DNA of 64,000 nt. It comes from Streptomyces aurantiacus. Its GTDB lineage: Bacteria; Actinomycetota; Actinomycetes; Streptomycetales; Streptomycetaceae. Below the pieces are notes generated by a model, which was not told where the DNA came from, made no database searches, and was given only the letters and a program-made list of their open reading frames with translations. How positions within the stretch are numbered: the stretch's first letter is position 1; each line of letters starts with the position of its first letter. Below are positions 1-12,237 of the stretch, piece after piece. The translations under genes and the position numbers were made by a program. The stretch covers positions 1 to 64,000 of the forward strand of contig NZ_LIPP01000004.1 of the NCBI RefSeq assembly GCF_001418335.1, written 5' to 3'.

Positions 1-728
1 AGTGCGGGGACATGCCAGGCGCCGCACACCACCGCCACGTCGTCCGCGAACTCCCTATGAGCCGCGCGCACCTGAAGGCGCATGTAGGCCTCGCGCACGA
101 GATCCCGGTCGTGTCCCCCGGTGCCGTAGACCTCCCGCAGTGCCTCCATGGCCTCGCCGAGCACGTCGAACGGTGCGAACGCGTCCCCTTCCCGCGCCCC
201 CGCTCCCGCCCCCCGGTGCTCGATCACGTCCTCCCACCACCGCTCGGGGTCGTCGTACCCGGCGGTCTCGGCGAGCACGCCGAGCGGGTCGATCCGCACG
301 GACCGATCGGCTCGATCGGGTTCGGCTTCTTCGCTCTCCCCCTCCTCGCGTCCCCAGGCGAGCGTGTGGGCGGCCGGGAGGTCGATGAAGCGGGCCGGCA
401 CCTTGTGCTCCAGGGCCCAGCGGATGGCCACCCACTCCGGTGAGAACTCGGCGAGCGGCCAGAACGCCGACCGTCCCGGCTCGTCCACGACATGCGCGAG
501 GAGCGCGACGGGCGGCCGCATGTCCTCGTCGGCGGCGAGCTCGATCAACGCGTCGGCCTCCGGCGGCCCTTCGAGGAGCACCACGCGCGGGTTCGCCTCG
601 TCGAGTGCCGCCCGTACGGCCCGCGCCGAGCCGGGCCCGTGGTGGCGCACTCCGAGCAGCAGGGGCCCGGGCGCCCGCCGGGCCCCGCTCACCGCAGCAT
701 GCTCGCTCACCTCGTCGTGCTCGCTCAC
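1..728 (-). CDS. DUF5682 family protein (N-terminal part, cut by window edge)
   Basis: The reading frame is open from a GTG at 728 to the window edge, so about 242 N-terminal residues are visible. The motif GVRHHGPGSAR near residue 30, followed by VVLLEGPPEAD, is the hallmark I associate with DUF5682 proteins, which accompany MoxR ATPases and von Willebrand A proteins in actinobacteria. The biochemical function is unknown. The GTG start overlaps the stop of the MoxR gene (GTGA), which suggests translational coupling and one transcript with it. A second GTG lies 18 bases further in. I chose the outer one because of the overlap. A vWA gene would be expected just outside the window. Confidence 0.75.
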   Translation of the reverse strand, partial: MSEHDEVSEHAAVSGARRAPGPLLLGVRHHGPGSARAVRAALDEANPRVVLLEGPPEADALIELAADEDMRPPVALLAHVVDEPGRSAFWPLAEFSPEWVAIRWALEHKVPARFIDLPAAHTLAWGREEGESEEAEPDRADRSVRIDPLGVLAETAGYDDPERWWEDVIEHRGAGAGAREGDAFAPFDVLGEAMEALREVYGTGGHDRDLVREAYMRLQVRAAHREFADDVAVVCGAWHVPA

Positions 729-1921
729 GCGCTCACCTCCCGGCACGCCCGGTAGAAGTCCTTCCAGCCGTCGCGCTCGCGGACGACCGCCTCCAGATAC
801 TCCTGCCAGATGACACGGTCGGCCGCCGGGTCGCGGACGACGGCGCCGAGGATGCCCGCGGCGACGTCACCGGCGCGCAGGACGCCGTCCCCGAAGTGGG
901 CCGCCAGGGCGAGGCCGTTGGTGACGACGGAGATCGCCTCGGCGGTGGACAGCGTGCCGCTGGGCGACTTGAGCTTCGTACGACCGTCGGCGGTGACGCC
1001 GTCGCGCAGCTCGCGGAAGACGGTGACGACGCGGCGGATCTCGTCGACGCCGTCGGGCACGGCGGGCAGGTCCAGGGACCGGCCGATCTGGTCGACCCGG
1101 CGCGAGACGATGTCGACCTCGGCGTCGGCGCTCTCCGGCAGGGGCAGGACCACCGTGTTGAAGCGGCGGCGCAGGGCGCTCGACAGGTCGTTCACCCCGC
1201 GGTCGCGGTCGTTGGCCGTCGCGATCAGGTTGAAGCCCCGCACGGCCTGCACCTCCGAGCCCAACTCCGGTATGGGCAGGCTCTTCTCGGACAGGATCGT
1301 GATGAGCGAGTCCTGTACGTCGGCGGGGATGCGGGTCAGCTCCTCGACCCGGGCCGTCATTCCCTCGGCCATCGCCCGCATGACCGGGCTGGGCACGAGC
1401 GCGTCGCGGCTCGGGCCGTGCGCAAGCAGCTGCGCGTAGTTCCACCCGTACCGGATCGCCTCCTCCGGTGTGCCGGCCGTGCCCTGCACGAGAAGTGTGG
1501 AGTCGCCGCTGACCGCCGCGGCCAGATGCTCGGACACCCAGGTTTTCGCCGTGCCGGGCACGCCGAGCAGGAGCAGCGCCCGGTCGGTGGCGAGCGTGGT
1601 GACAGCGACCTCGACGATGCGGCGCGGGCCCACGTACTTCGGTGTGATCACCGTGCCGTCCGGCAGCATGCCGCCGAGCAGGTACGTGGCGACGGCCCAG
1701 GGGGACATCCGCCAGCGGGCGGGCCGCGGGCGGTCGTCCTGCGCGGCCAGCGCGGCGAGCTCGACGGCGAACGCGTCCTCGGCGTGCGGCCGCAGCTCCT
1801 CGCCCTTGTCCTGCTTGTCCTGCTTGTCCTGCGCGACCGAGGATGCGGGCGCGGGCGCGGACTGGTGGTGGTTCGGGTCGACGGACGTCGGGTCCACGGA
1901 CACGGACATGGGCACGGACAT
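725..1921 (-). CDS. MoxR-type AAA+ ATPase
   Basis: This 398-residue protein has a Walker A motif GVPGTAKT near residue 120, sensor-1 LIATAND and an arginine-finger region ALRRRF, typical of MoxR AAA+ ATPases. These act as chaperone-like remodelling machines, often with vWA partners. Where MoxR proteins usually have Asp-Glu in Walker B, this one reads RVEELTRIP, so the first acid is Glu. I chose the ATG at 1921 because AAGGGGGACC lies just upstream. The frame extends to 1987 but that extension runs through the promoter. The N-terminus is Asp/Pro/His-rich with a repeated QDKQDK. It is the first gene of a leftward pair with DUF5682. Confidence 0.85.
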   Translation of the reverse strand: MSVPMSVSVDPTSVDPNHHQSAPAPASSVAQDKQDKQDKGEELRPHAEDAFAVELAALAAQDDRPRPARWRMSPWAVATYLLGGMLPDGTVITPKYVGPRRIVEVAVTTLATDRALLLLGVPGTAKTWVSEHLAAAVSGDSTLLVQGTAGTPEEAIRYGWNYAQLLAHGPSRDALVPSPVMRAMAEGMTARVEELTRIPADVQDSLITILSEKSLPIPELGSEVQAVRGFNLIATANDRDRGVNDLSSALRRRFNTVVLPLPESADAEVDIVSRRVDQIGRSLDLPAVPDGVDEIRRVVTVFRELRDGVTADGRTKLKSPSGTLSTAEAISVVTNGLALAAHFGDGVLRAGDVAAGILGAVVRDPAADRVIWQEYLEAVVRERDGWKDFYRACREVSA

Positions 1922-1964: not shown

Positions 1965-2054
1965 ACCGTGCACCACGCCACTGACAATCACTCTGACCTG
2001 CACAAACACGCTCGGCGCAGTCGATTGTCAGTGGTGGGACCTACCTTCGATTGC
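1965..2054. promoter_or_regulatory. Divergent promoter region with inverted TTGTCAGTG elements
   Basis: A 12-base inverted repeat (CCACTGACAATC at 1978-1989, GATTGTCAGTGG at 2023-2034) carries TTGTCAGTG on each strand. Rightward, TTGTCAGTG (2025-2033) is followed after exactly 8 bases by TACCTT (2042-2047). This fits the tTGTCRgtg-N8-TAnnnT consensus of actinobacterial LexA-independent DNA-damage promoters. The ATG of the SWIM gene lies 7 bases after TACCTT, so that mRNA is probably leaderless. Leftward, the same element is followed after 8 bases by CACGGT, a poorer -10. Damage control is an inference from the motif. Confidence 0.7.
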
Positions 2055-3410
2055 ATGACTCAGCAGGGGGTGCGCTGGACTGCGGATCAGGTGCTGGCAC
2101 TGGCGCCTGACACCGCGTCACGCAAGGCGGGCAGCAAGCTCGGCGCGGCAGGGCCGTGGTCTGAGGCGGGCAGTTCTGACGAGGGGACGGTGTGGGGGCT
2201 GTGCAGGGGAAGCGGCAGCAAGCCGTATCGGACGGTGATCGACATCGCGGACTCGACCGGGCCCGCGTACAAGTGCAGTTGCCCGAGCCGCAAGTTCCCG
2301 TGCAAGCACGCGCTGGGGCTGCTGCTGCTCTGGGCCGGCGAGGACGGCACGGTGCCGCGGGGGCAGGCGCCGGACTGGGCGGACGAGTGGATCGAGGACC
2401 GGAGGAAGCGAGCGGACGACAAGCGGGCGGCGGCGAGCGCGGCCGGTTCCGCGCCCGCGGGTGATCCGGAGGCGGCGCGGCGCAGGGCGGAGCGGCGAGC
2501 CGAGTGGATCACCGCGGGGGCGGCGGAGCTGGAGCAGCGGCTGACCGATCTGCTGCGAGGCGGTCTGGCCTCGGCGGAACAGGCGGGGTACGGGCTGTGG
2601 GAGGAGACAGCGGCCCGCATGGTCGACGCGCAGGCGCCGGGACTTGCCGCGCGGGTGCGGGAGTTGGGGGCGATACCGTCGTCCGGCCCCGGCTGGCCGG
2701 TGCGGCTGCTTGAGGAGTGCGCGCTGCTCCACCTTCTCGACCAGGGGTGGCTGCGCCGTGACGTGCTGCCCGGCGGCCTGGCCGCGACGGTCCGTTCCCG
2801 GATCGGGCTGCCCGGCTCGGCGGACGGTCCGCCGGTGCGCGACCAGTGGCTGGTCCTGGCCCAGTACGACACCGCGGACAGCCGGCTGACGACTCGCCGT
2901 ATCTGGCTGTACGGGGCCGAGTCGGGGCGTACGGTCCTGGTCCTTTCCTACGGGGCCGCCGGGCGTGCGCCGGAGCTGGTGTTGCCCGTCGGGCTGACGC
3001 TCGACGCGGAGGTGTCGGCATATCCGGGTGCCGGGCAGTCGCGGGTGGCGCTGGGCGAGCGGTTCGCCGCTCCGGCGCCCACGGGGTTCCGGCCGCCCGG
3101 AGTGGGCGTGGCGCGGGCCGTGGCCCAGTACGGCGAGGCGCTCCGGGACGATCCGTGGCTGGAGTCCCGGCCCGTGACGCTCGGCCGCGTCATACCGACT
3201 CCGGACGGCGACGACTGGCAGCTGGCGGACGCCGACGGAGAACTCGCCCTGCCGCTCGCTCCGCCCGCCCGGTCCCGCTCCGGTCTGTGGCGTCTGGTCG
3301 CGCTCTCCGGCGGCGCGCCGCTGACGGTGTTCGGGGAGTGCGGTCACCGCGGCTTCTCCCCCCTCGCGGCGTGGCCGGAGGGCCGGGGCGAGGCAGTGCC
3401 CCTGTGCTGA
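2055..3410 (+). CDS. SWIM zinc-finger protein
   Basis: This 451-residue protein carries a CxC-x6-CxH zinc-binding SWIM motif (C74, C76, C83, H85, within YKCSCPSRKFPCKH). SWIM domains bind DNA or protein and occur with MoxR and SNF2 systems. The rest is Ala/Arg/Glu-rich then globular, and I recognise no enzyme motif in it. The ATG at 2055 lies 7 bases after a -10 box, so leaderless initiation is likely. The longer frame upstream is an artefact of the promoter. It is followed after 46 bases by the DUF5691 gene on the same strand, and it faces the MoxR gene. The job inside the module is unknown. Confidence 0.85.
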   Translation: MTQQGVRWTADQVLALAPDTASRKAGSKLGAAGPWSEAGSSDEGTVWGLCRGSGSKPYRTVIDIADSTGPAYKCSCPSRKFPCKHALGLLLLWAGEDGTVPRGQAPDWADEWIEDRRKRADDKRAAASAAGSAPAGDPEAARRRAERRAEWITAGAAELEQRLTDLLRGGLASAEQAGYGLWEETAARMVDAQAPGLAARVRELGAIPSSGPGWPVRLLEECALLHLLDQGWLRRDVLPGGLAATVRSRIGLPGSADGPPVRDQWLVLAQYDTADSRLTTRRIWLYGAESGRTVLVLSYGAAGRAPELVLPVGLTLDAEVSAYPGAGQSRVALGERFAAPAPTGFRPPGVGVARAVAQYGEALRDDPWLESRPVTLGRVIPTPDGDDWQLADADGELALPLAPPARSRSGLWRLVALSGGAPLTVFGECGHRGFSPLAAWPEGRGEAVPLC

Positions 3411-3456
3411 AGCCACCCTGCCCCGCGCTCCCCACCTCCCGATGAAAGGGACACGC

Positions 3457-5100
3457 ATGATGAACGAAACGGCCGTGCCCGGCACCCCCGCTGCCACGAA
3501 GACGCCGCCCGACGGGAACCGTTGGGAGGAGCTCGTGACCGTGGCGCTGCTGGGGACCGCACGGCGTACGCCGTCGGGGATGACGGCCCGGCGCGACGCA
3601 CCGACGGCGCTGCTGGACGCGGCGGCCGTGGAGACCGTACGGCGCAGGGCCGGGATGCGGCCGGGGCGGGCGGCGGCCCGGATCGAGCCGGCGGCGGAGG
3701 ATTCCCGTCCCGCGCTGCCGTCGGCGGCGGCGCGCAGGCTGACGATGCTGCTCGCCGACCGGCCGGGGGCGGGGAGCGGCGGCCGCAGGGGGACGACCCC
3801 CGATCTCATGGAGCTGCTGCCGCAGTGGCTCGCCACGGCGAACCGGCACGGTTTCGCGGCTCCCGCACCGGCACTGCCCGCCCTGCTGGACGCGGCCCGG
3901 GGGCGTACGGACATCCGGCCTGCGGTGCTGGCGTTCGCGGGACCGCGCGCACTGTGGCTGGCCCGGCTGAACGCGGACTGGCGGTTTGCGCTGCGCGCGG
4001 CGCCGGGCGGTGGTGCGGCCCTGCCCGGGCCCGAGGAGCCGGAGCGGATGCGTGAGTTGTGGGAGGAGGGGCTGTTCGCCGAGCGGGTCGCGCTCCTCGC
4101 GGCGGTACGGGGGCGGGACGCCGGAGCCGCGCGGGACCTGCTCACCACGACGTGGGCTTCGGAGCGGGCCGAGGACCGGCTGATGTTCCTCGACTCGTTG
4201 CGGACGGGGCTGTGCGCGGCGGACGAGCCGTTCCTGGAGCAGGCGTTGGCCGACCGGAGCCGCAATGTGCGGTCCACGGCGGCGGAACTGCTGTCCGCGC
4301 TGCCCGCCTCGGCACTCGCGGGGCGGATGGCGGAGCGAGCGGGGTCCTGCGTCGCGGTCGACCATACGCGCGGCACGCCGACGATAGTGGTGGAGGCGCC
4401 GCACGAATGCGATCCCGGCATGGAGCGGGACGGCGTGGTGGCCAAGGCTCCGGCCAGGCGTGGTGAACGGTCGTGGTGGCTGGGTCAGTTGGTGGACGCG
4501 GCGCCGCTCGGCACCTGGTCACGGCGGCTCGGGGGACGTACGCCGGAGGAGATCGTGGCGCTGCCCGTGGCCGACGACTGGCGGGACGAACTGCATGCCG
4601 CGTGGTGCAGGGCGGCGGTGCGGCAGCGTGATCCTTCCTGGTCAAGAGCGCTGCTGGGGACACCGGCGGTGCCCGAGGCGGGCGGGCCCGGCGCGATGTC
4701 CCTGGCCGAGCGGGCGAAGCTGCTCAGCACGCTGGGGGCCGCGGAGCGGGCCGAGTGGGTGGCGGGATTCATAGCCGTGCACGGACTGTCCGAGGCGTTC
4801 CAACTGCTCGGGGTGTGCGCGGTGCCGTGGGCCGGCCCGTTGGGCCGGGCTGTGGTGGACGCGCTCAACATCGCACGGGACGCGGGGAGTTACCCATGGA
4901 GTTTCAGCGGAGTCATGGGACTGGCCGAACGCTGCCTGGACCCGGCGGAGGCCATCCGCCTCGAAGCACTCACCGCGGTCCCCGACGAACCGGAGCACGC
5001 GGCACCGGGCGCCGGCGGCTACTGGGCCGAGTCCTTCCAACGCCTGCTCACCACACTCCGCCTACGCGCAACAATCCAAACAGAACTCACACCCCCGTAA
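3457..5100 (+). CDS. DUF5691 family protein
   Basis: This is a 547-residue protein. The N-terminal WEELVTVALLGTARRTP and the general make-up match the DUF5691 proteins found beside SWIM and MoxR genes. The middle, around DRSRNVRSTAAELLSALP, looks like a helical HEAT-type repeat, so a scaffold role is possible. No catalytic motif is visible. AAAGGGA at 3445-3451 points to the ATG at 3457, and a second ATG follows directly. The ATG at 3442 lies before the ribosome site and was rejected. It is probably cotranscribed with the SWIM gene from the damage-type promoter. Confidence 0.75.
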   Translation: MMNETAVPGTPAATKTPPDGNRWEELVTVALLGTARRTPSGMTARRDAPTALLDAAAVETVRRRAGMRPGRAAARIEPAAEDSRPALPSAAARRLTMLLADRPGAGSGGRRGTTPDLMELLPQWLATANRHGFAAPAPALPALLDAARGRTDIRPAVLAFAGPRALWLARLNADWRFALRAAPGGGAALPGPEEPERMRELWEEGLFAERVALLAAVRGRDAGAARDLLTTTWASERAEDRLMFLDSLRTGLCAADEPFLEQALADRSRNVRSTAAELLSALPASALAGRMAERAGSCVAVDHTRGTPTIVVEAPHECDPGMERDGVVAKAPARRGERSWWLGQLVDAAPLGTWSRRLGGRTPEEIVALPVADDWRDELHAAWCRAAVRQRDPSWSRALLGTPAVPEAGGPGAMSLAERAKLLSTLGAAERAEWVAGFIAVHGLSEAFQLLGVCAVPWAGPLGRAVVDALNIARDAGSYPWSFSGVMGLAERCLDPAEAIRLEALTAVPDEPEHAAPGAGGYWAESFQRLLTTLRLRATIQTELTPP

Positions 5101-11773: not shown

Positions 11774-12237
11774 CGCTCTCCGAGTCTAGGCGCCCCCACT
11801 GACACCCTGCCGCCACCCCGGAAACTCCGCGAAATCCGAACCCGGACCCGGACTCCAACCCGGACACGAATCCGATCCTTACTCCGGTCCTGAATCCGGT
11901 CCTGAATCCGGTCCCGACAGGGTGGATCGCTCATAGCTACTACCCGAACACGTTCCGGAACCAAACGGCCGACCGGGCCGACCGAGGGCCAACCAGACCG
12001 ACCGGGGCCGAAACATGCGCCTTGCCGCCGAACGGGTCACCCCACCCGGAACTTGCCACTCCGGGCAACTCGGCGCATATCCCGCCCAATTGAAGCCAGC
12101 GAACGAGTCTCCATACCCAGGTCACGAAAATGTATCGGGCATATCGCACATCAAACTTCACAGGCGCCACACGAATTGGCTAACTTTCGGGTAGGCCGCT
12201 CGACCCGCACCGGCGAACAACGCCGGGCCGAGCGGGC
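11774..12237. other. Intergenic region upstream of pcrA and of the ydaO riboswitch
   Basis: This stretch of 464 bases separates the divergent pcrA and P60 genes. Near 11840-11920 it has short imperfect repeats of CCGGTCCTGAAT and CCGGACAC type. The part around 12110-12190 is AT-richer and should hold the promoter for the riboswitch transcript. I see no gene here. Confidence 0.5.

Follow-up and report, generated by a model that had tools for sequence, protein, structure and literature searches.

Predicted divergent DNA-damage promoters of a ddrTUVWX-type AAA+ module in Streptomyces, with a stepwise gap between their boxes

Promoters of the RecA-NDp type precede repair genes and have the consensus TTGTCRGTG, N8, TAnnnT. 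In mycobacteria, a box of this type has been tied to PafBC, according to excerpts of two reports (PMC8223512, PMC6789036). Passages of another mycobacterial report describe how PafBC, once single-stranded DNA has activated it, takes a position between the promoter and sigma domain 4, with PafB reading the -26 motif (PMC11804915). In excerpts of a 2022 study of S. venezuelae, the M. smegmatis PafBC motif was called not conserved there. A five-gene operon of unknown function, ddrTUVWX, has been described in Deinococcus deserti with an RDRM site upstream, and the available parts of that work list four of its five genes in a table of highly radiation-induced, IrrE-dependent genes. The authors of the D. 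taeanensis work, as excerpted, reported that ddrV and ddrW of its ddrTUVWX are separated by an additional 78-residue gene.

In this study, we analysed a window of Streptomyces aurantiacus DNA (the whole stretch of 64,000 nucleotides) in which a module of such genes adjoins two promoter-like sites (Table 1). The module brings together genes for SWIM, DUF5691, MoxR-type AAA, DUF5682 and VWA_CoxE proteins. Three of them (SWIM, DUF5691 and MoxR) are whole in the window and DUF5682 is represented by its beginning; because the contig ends, VWA_CoxE was seen in the orthologous locus L001 and not in the window. The gene row in D. taeanensis is SWIM, DUF5691, AAA, a small hypothetical gene, DUF5682 and VWA, and the 78-residue gene fits the small hypothetical one. 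All five proteins, taken from the window or L001, matched the D. taeanensis locus, DUF5691 weakly (E 6e-5), and the window MoxR protein was 71.7% identical to the D. taeanensis ATPase. These results indicate that the window module is orthologous to Deinococcus ddrTUVWX. The module was also present on a Hymenobacter radiodurans plasmid (Bacteroidota; L252), where DUF5682 is annotated in three pieces.

Table 1. Positions of predicted promoter elements and module genes in the window.
Feature	Position	Strand	Remarks
Right box TTGTCAGTG	2025..2033	+	Predicted -29 to -21; pattern match and conservation
Right -10 TACCTT, N8 from box	2042..2047	+	Pattern match
Left box TTGTCAGTG	1979..1987	-	Pattern match and conservation
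Left -10 CACGGT (CANNNT variant), N8 from box	1965..1970	-	Pattern match, genome-wide variant counts, conservation
Inverted repeat, 12-base, left arm CCACTGACAATC	1978..1989	.	
Inverted repeat, 12-base, right arm GATTGTCAGTGG	2023..2034	.	
Conserved TGACCTGC element (GCAGGTCA viewed from left promoter)	1994..2001	.	6 nt upstream of left box
MoxR-type AAA ATPase (AAA_5), ddrV orthologue, relative of E. coli yehL	725..1921	-	
DUF5682 gene beginning (ddrW / yehM), cut by contig end	3..746	-	Family from L001 orthologue
SWIM zinc-finger protein, ddrT orthologue	2055..3410	+	
DUF5691 protein, ddrU orthologue	3442..5100	+	

The arms CCACTGACAATC and GATTGTCAGTGG are exact reverse complements over all 12 bases, as the original prediction had said of TTGTCAGTG on both strands. 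The right site matches the RecA-NDp/PafBC type in full, as had been claimed for this side, with the TTGTCRGTG box, N8 and TAnnnT, and TACCTT is followed by 7 nt and then the ATG of the SWIM gene. With N7-N9 allowed, its pattern had a single match in the window, and 100 window shuffles gave none. The left site has the TTGTCRGTG box and N8, and its CACGGT departs from the strict TAnnnT. Read off the hexamer, the rightward transcript is predicted to start at 2054-2055 and to be leaderless; the leftward start is predicted near 1958. The bare 9-mer with one mismatch allowed was not rare in the window (9 seen against 5.9 expected), and therefore box, spacing and -10 combined, together with conservation, were taken as the evidence. 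In the whole genome, TTGTCRGTG-N8-TANNNT was found at 29 sites, and the pattern read backwards at none. A simple chance origin of the sites was rejected on the shuffle and reversed-pattern controls and on the controls for the relaxed -10 and the free spacer given below. The window holds a third damage-type site on the minus strand at 11783-11805, GTGTCAGTG-N8-TAGACT with one mismatch, which stops 9 nt short of the ATG (11773) of a UvrD/PcrA helicase gene, about 10 kb from the module promoters.

The same motif had been expected before SWIM/MoxR pairs in other Streptomyces, and it was present there. We compared 88 loci, made up of 80 from Streptomyces of named species, 7 from further Streptomyces and the window. 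The left site was intact in 87 of 88 loci, as was the right site; the two misses were an altered right box (L055) and a left box with one change (L079). All 87 matching right -10 hexamers start with TA and end with T. In a census of the genus, which may overlap with the 88-locus set, 148 of 159 genomes had the SWIM gene, and 129 of these 148 had a box pair within 250 bp. Ninety of the 129 pairs are listed exact matches, judged SWIM-adjacent by eye from their coordinates, and 39 came from fetched stretches, among which boxes with one or two mismatches occur. In the remaining 19 genomes the right box was always retained, with no more than one mismatch; a good left box near SWIM was not found in the fetched stretch of 18 of them, and in the other (G296) the left box lay 595 bp off. 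Separately, at least four divergent box pairs lay away from SWIM in census genomes (G339, G362, G326 and G320), with gaps of 29, 42, 60 and 72. The promoter type, the two-sided layout and the link to DNA damage, all part of the original prediction, were upheld by the genome comparison.

The gap between the two boxes was found to be stepwise. Among the 88 loci it measured 36-38 (43 loci), 48-49 (19), 60-61 (25) or 71 bp (1), and 120 of the 129 census pairs fell at 25-27 (14), 36-38 (71), 47-50 (20), 60-61 (14) or 71 bp (1). No gap of 28-35, 39-46, 51-59 or 62-70 bp occurred among the 129 census pairs, and the remaining gaps of 81, 84, 92, 107, 110, 110, 126, 164 and 184 bp fit the ladder poorly. 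Judged by polymerase footprints, the smallest rung (25-27 bp) is about the distance at which two polymerases would just abut. The best period was about 11.4-11.65 bp (~11.65 over genomes and ~11.45 over distinct values), and none of 5000 random sets of distinct values matched this periodicity in a test that was chosen after the ladder had been seen. Excerpts of a study of in-vivo lac repression give fitted helical repeats of 11.60, 11.08 and, without HU, 10.95 bp per turn, for comparison with ~10.5 bp per turn in free DNA (PMC1762422). The gap period is near these in-vivo repeats, and the steps amount to about one turn of the DNA helix in most Streptomyces examined.

The element TGACCTGC lies within the gap. 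Of 125 spacers, 94 carried it at 6-7 nt from the left box, 19 carried it inverted at the same distance from the right box and 3 had it at 17-18 nt; with up to one mismatch allowed, it was not found in 9. Taken as a motif by itself (YSYGACCTGCRNAAA), the element was found 8 times in the genome and not at all in the control. We also considered TGACCTGC as a half-box 12 bp upstream of a box and rejected this as a general feature, because in 54 contexts (at most 51 different sites; L098 and L170 share two) GTCAG stood in that place at two other sites only (L082 and L163). These two, which precede a second SWIM gene and a Lhr-like helicase gene, have GGTCAG upstream at the same distance from the box as in the module.

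The gap may hold a helical register that lets the two PafBC-polymerase complexes, or a factor on TGACCTGC, make contact. If the complexes, or each of them with a TGACCTGC factor, must share one DNA face, the gap would be confined throughout Streptomyces to multiples of the helical repeat in vivo (~11.5 bp), and the half-operons would act as a coupled switch; we offer this tentatively, at somewhat short of an even chance. A mutational origin without function, through 12-bp duplications or exchange of intergenic haplotypes between strains, is a possibility that deserves weight, though it probably does not hold. It agrees with the self-match of the spacers at lag 12, which is slightly raised in the shortest gap class also, and with the poor ladder fit above 75 bp. 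The MoxR leader in the 88 loci likewise has two main length classes, 42-44 and 52-54, about 10 bp apart (one locus has 50 and one is unmeasured), and these classes change often on a quick tree of the SWIM gene only, which makes homoplasy by recombination or local duplication likely. On the same tree, 16 changes of gap class were inferred, with 12 as the lower bound when branches below 95 support were collapsed; in view of the leader result, both numbers may be too high. However, no near-exact 12-bp duplication was found in 49 long spacers, the intermediate lengths are empty among the 129 pairs, and the SWIM-DUF5691 spacer had no period, with 64 values in 72 loci (those of 80 in which the anchor was found). 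Exact gap changes of 2-10 or 14-22 bp were absent from the SWIM tree, and the spacers formed 2, 4 and 8 clusters within gap classes.

The leftward CACGGT had originally been called weak. When the first -10 base was relaxed to A, C or G, 42 extra genome sites were obtained against 3 in the control; counted by hand, they comprised 25 CANNNT (the left site of the window included), 16 GANNNT and 1 AANNNT. With the spacer left free between 4 and 12, all 18 genome matches to TTGTCAGTG...CANNNT had a spacer of exactly 8, and the control gave none. In the 87 matching left sites, bases 1 (C), 2 (A) and the last (T) of the -10 were invariant and the inner three varied. Eleven of the 24 other CA sites stop 6-8 nt before the start codon of an open frame. 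Two of the 24 have no reading frame of at least 60 codons beginning within 130 nt, so chance probably accounts for some of the CA sites. Fourteen downstream genes of these 24 sites were scanned, and five belong to repair or replication, namely a DinB-type polymerase, an NAD-dependent ligase, a helicase called Lhr-like here, a clamp-loader delta-type subunit and an alkyltransferase-like protein. These results indicate that CANNNT is a recurring variant of the RecA-NDp/PafBC promoter class and not a defect. Since it recurs, in the related family f65 described below as well, and is enriched at N8, the left side need not be weak, and the earlier description of its -10 was too simple. At one locus (L168), two tandem CA-type boxes stand 63 nt apart before one gene.

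The module is divergent in the window and in the Streptomyces loci, and a colinear operon with SWIM first was not seen there; it is colinear in D. taeanensis, Nocardia farcinica, Nonomuraea and family f65, which belongs to the same order as Streptomyces. In six of eight f65 loci, a box with at most one mismatch and TAGTGT precede SWIM, with the ATG 6-7 nt further, and the same six carry an internal TTGTCAGTG-GCGTGGTG-CACAAT between SWIM and DUF5691. The eight spacer bases of this internal site, GCGTGGTG, are those of the left promoter of the window. Most simply, the left promoter would be an old internal promoter that a rearrangement in Streptomyces placed back to back with the other. Inspected by eye, the other two f65 loci have a SWIM promoter with two mismatches, Nocardia-type loci have weaker versions at SWIM, and Nonomuraea has one with two mismatches; seven other loci of the phylum had no such promoter upstream of SWIM. 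The right site alone might be a damage promoter, the left box being a relic or an upstream aid to the right one and MoxR-DUF5682-VWA being driven otherwise. This would account for the departure of the left -10 from TAnnnT and for the 18 census genomes lacking a good left box near SWIM, but it is hard to reconcile with the constant C, A and last T among varying inner letters at 87 loci, with the fixed spacer of 8, or with a TTGTCAGTG-GCGTGGTG-CA unit inside the colinear f65 operon, and we consider it unlikely.

We examined the genes behind the genome-wide sites. The scan of TA-type sites covered 25 downstream genes from 28 other sites, omitting L084 (inside long reading frames), L096 (contig end) and L103 (nearest frame 45 codons). 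Pfam assigns ten of these genes to repair or replication: recA, uvrA, uvrB, ruvC, a DinG-like helicase, dnaX, uracil-DNA glycosylase, thyX, O6-methylguanine methyltransferase and a RecD2-type helicase. Further genes include a Shedu-type protein, a second SWIM protein, DUF4132, a SUKH protein, PhoH and Pgi, and four have no Pfam family (L081, L083 and L094) or a general one only. The thyX product (L095) contains an intein-splicing domain with an HNH domain. Shedu-type, RecD2-type helicase, DUF4132 and SUKH genes stand behind TA- or CA-type boxes (L097, L102, L104, L085, L158 and L172), and several of the families named here include ones with links to defence.

The genome has a tandem pafB-pafC pair whose proteins match the PafBC chains 6sj9 and 7p5x, the latter being the M. 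smegmatis polymerase complex. In a sample of 246 genomes of the phylum, all eight Streptomyces genomes hold 10-40 exact sites. At least three sites were found in 17 of the 246 genomes, and all 17 have a PafB homologue (E up to 1e-12), an association that kinship confounds. PafB homologues occur in 153 of the 246, and four genomes of the class have one with the exact site absent. The boxes could therefore be damage promoters read by a regulator other than PafBC; the genome has seven WYL matches, so the box could be recognised by a different WYL protein, and the doubt raised in the excerpted 2022 study concerns S. venezuelae. However, it is PafBC to which excerpts of the mycobacterial reports tie promoters of the RecA-NDp kind (PMC8223512, PMC6789036), and we regard a different reader as improbable. 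These observations are consistent with PafBC acting at the two Streptomyces sites, and both damage induction and PafBC dependence would be expected in Streptomyces.

Taken together, the two sites are probably the promoters of a DNA-damage-inducible module of the ddrTUVWX type, activated via PafBC in both directions at once. DNA damage would yield single-stranded DNA, which would activate the WYL heterodimer PafBC as in M. smegmatis, and PafBC would adapt the housekeeping RNA polymerase to TTGTCAGTG at about -26. Both sides would then fire, the rightward start giving a leaderless SWIM-DUF5691 transcript and the leftward start simultaneously giving MoxR-DUF5682-VWA with a leader of about 37 nt. 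That the inverted repeat is instead a single palindromic operator for a dimeric regulator, as its exact 12-base arms and the imperfect palindrome bound by the WYL homodimer SiwR in an excerpted report (PMC10693628) might suggest, is highly improbable, because gap lengths span 25 to 184 bp, each arm is accompanied by a separate -10 at N8, and many genes are preceded by a single box of this type.

This is a known promoter class in an unusual two-sided, evenly stepped form, at a module for which damage control elsewhere is independently indicated. Among the papers listed for PafBC/RecA-NDp, Streptomyces and divergent promoters, titles and abstract openings contained no report of this layout. An uncharacterised AAA+ module is placed in the likely DNA-damage regulon of Streptomyces and tied to ddrTUVWX; it seems that the same genes came under damage control in two phyla along different routes. 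The result bears on a question that excerpts of the literature pose as open, the existence of a PafBC-type response in Streptomyces. Were the helical spacing functional, the locus would offer a natural case of sigma-adapted polymerases that have to face each other at divergent promoters.

Among described systems, the E. coli K-12 locus yehL-yehM-yehP-yehQ is a more distant relative (MoxR 40%, DUF5682 27% and VWA 37% identity) with a SWIM gene at its end. It differs in having no annotated DUF5691 gene and another gene order, and YehQ gave no significant alignment with the window SWIM protein. With the MoxR-vWA ternary conflict systems, as excerpted, the common feature is the pairing of MoxR and vWA (PMC7159879); the bpMoxR model reached 22.6 bits on the module, under its 27-bit cut-off, and PADLOC gave no match for the five module proteins. 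A profile search (E up to 0.1) returned no solved-structure relatives of DUF5682 and SWIM, and none of the papers covered by a text search mentioned DUF5691 or DUF5682.

Deinococcus ddrTUVWX, in the IrrE/DdrO regulon, shares the same five families and damage-linked control. It forms one colinear operon behind the RDRM of a repressor, whereas the Streptomyces genes form two divergent operons with activator-type promoters. That an unrelated regulator links the same genes to damage in another phylum gives the original idea of damage control more support than the motif alone. The RecA-NDp/PafBC promoters known from recA of S. coelicolor and M. tuberculosis, from SCO6735 and from the M. smegmatis regulon resemble the window sites in the TTGTCRGTG, N8, TAnnnT pattern, in the company of repair genes and in a genome that encodes PafBC. 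Unlike them, the window sites stand back to back over one module, with CANNNT on the left and a quantised gap between the boxes.
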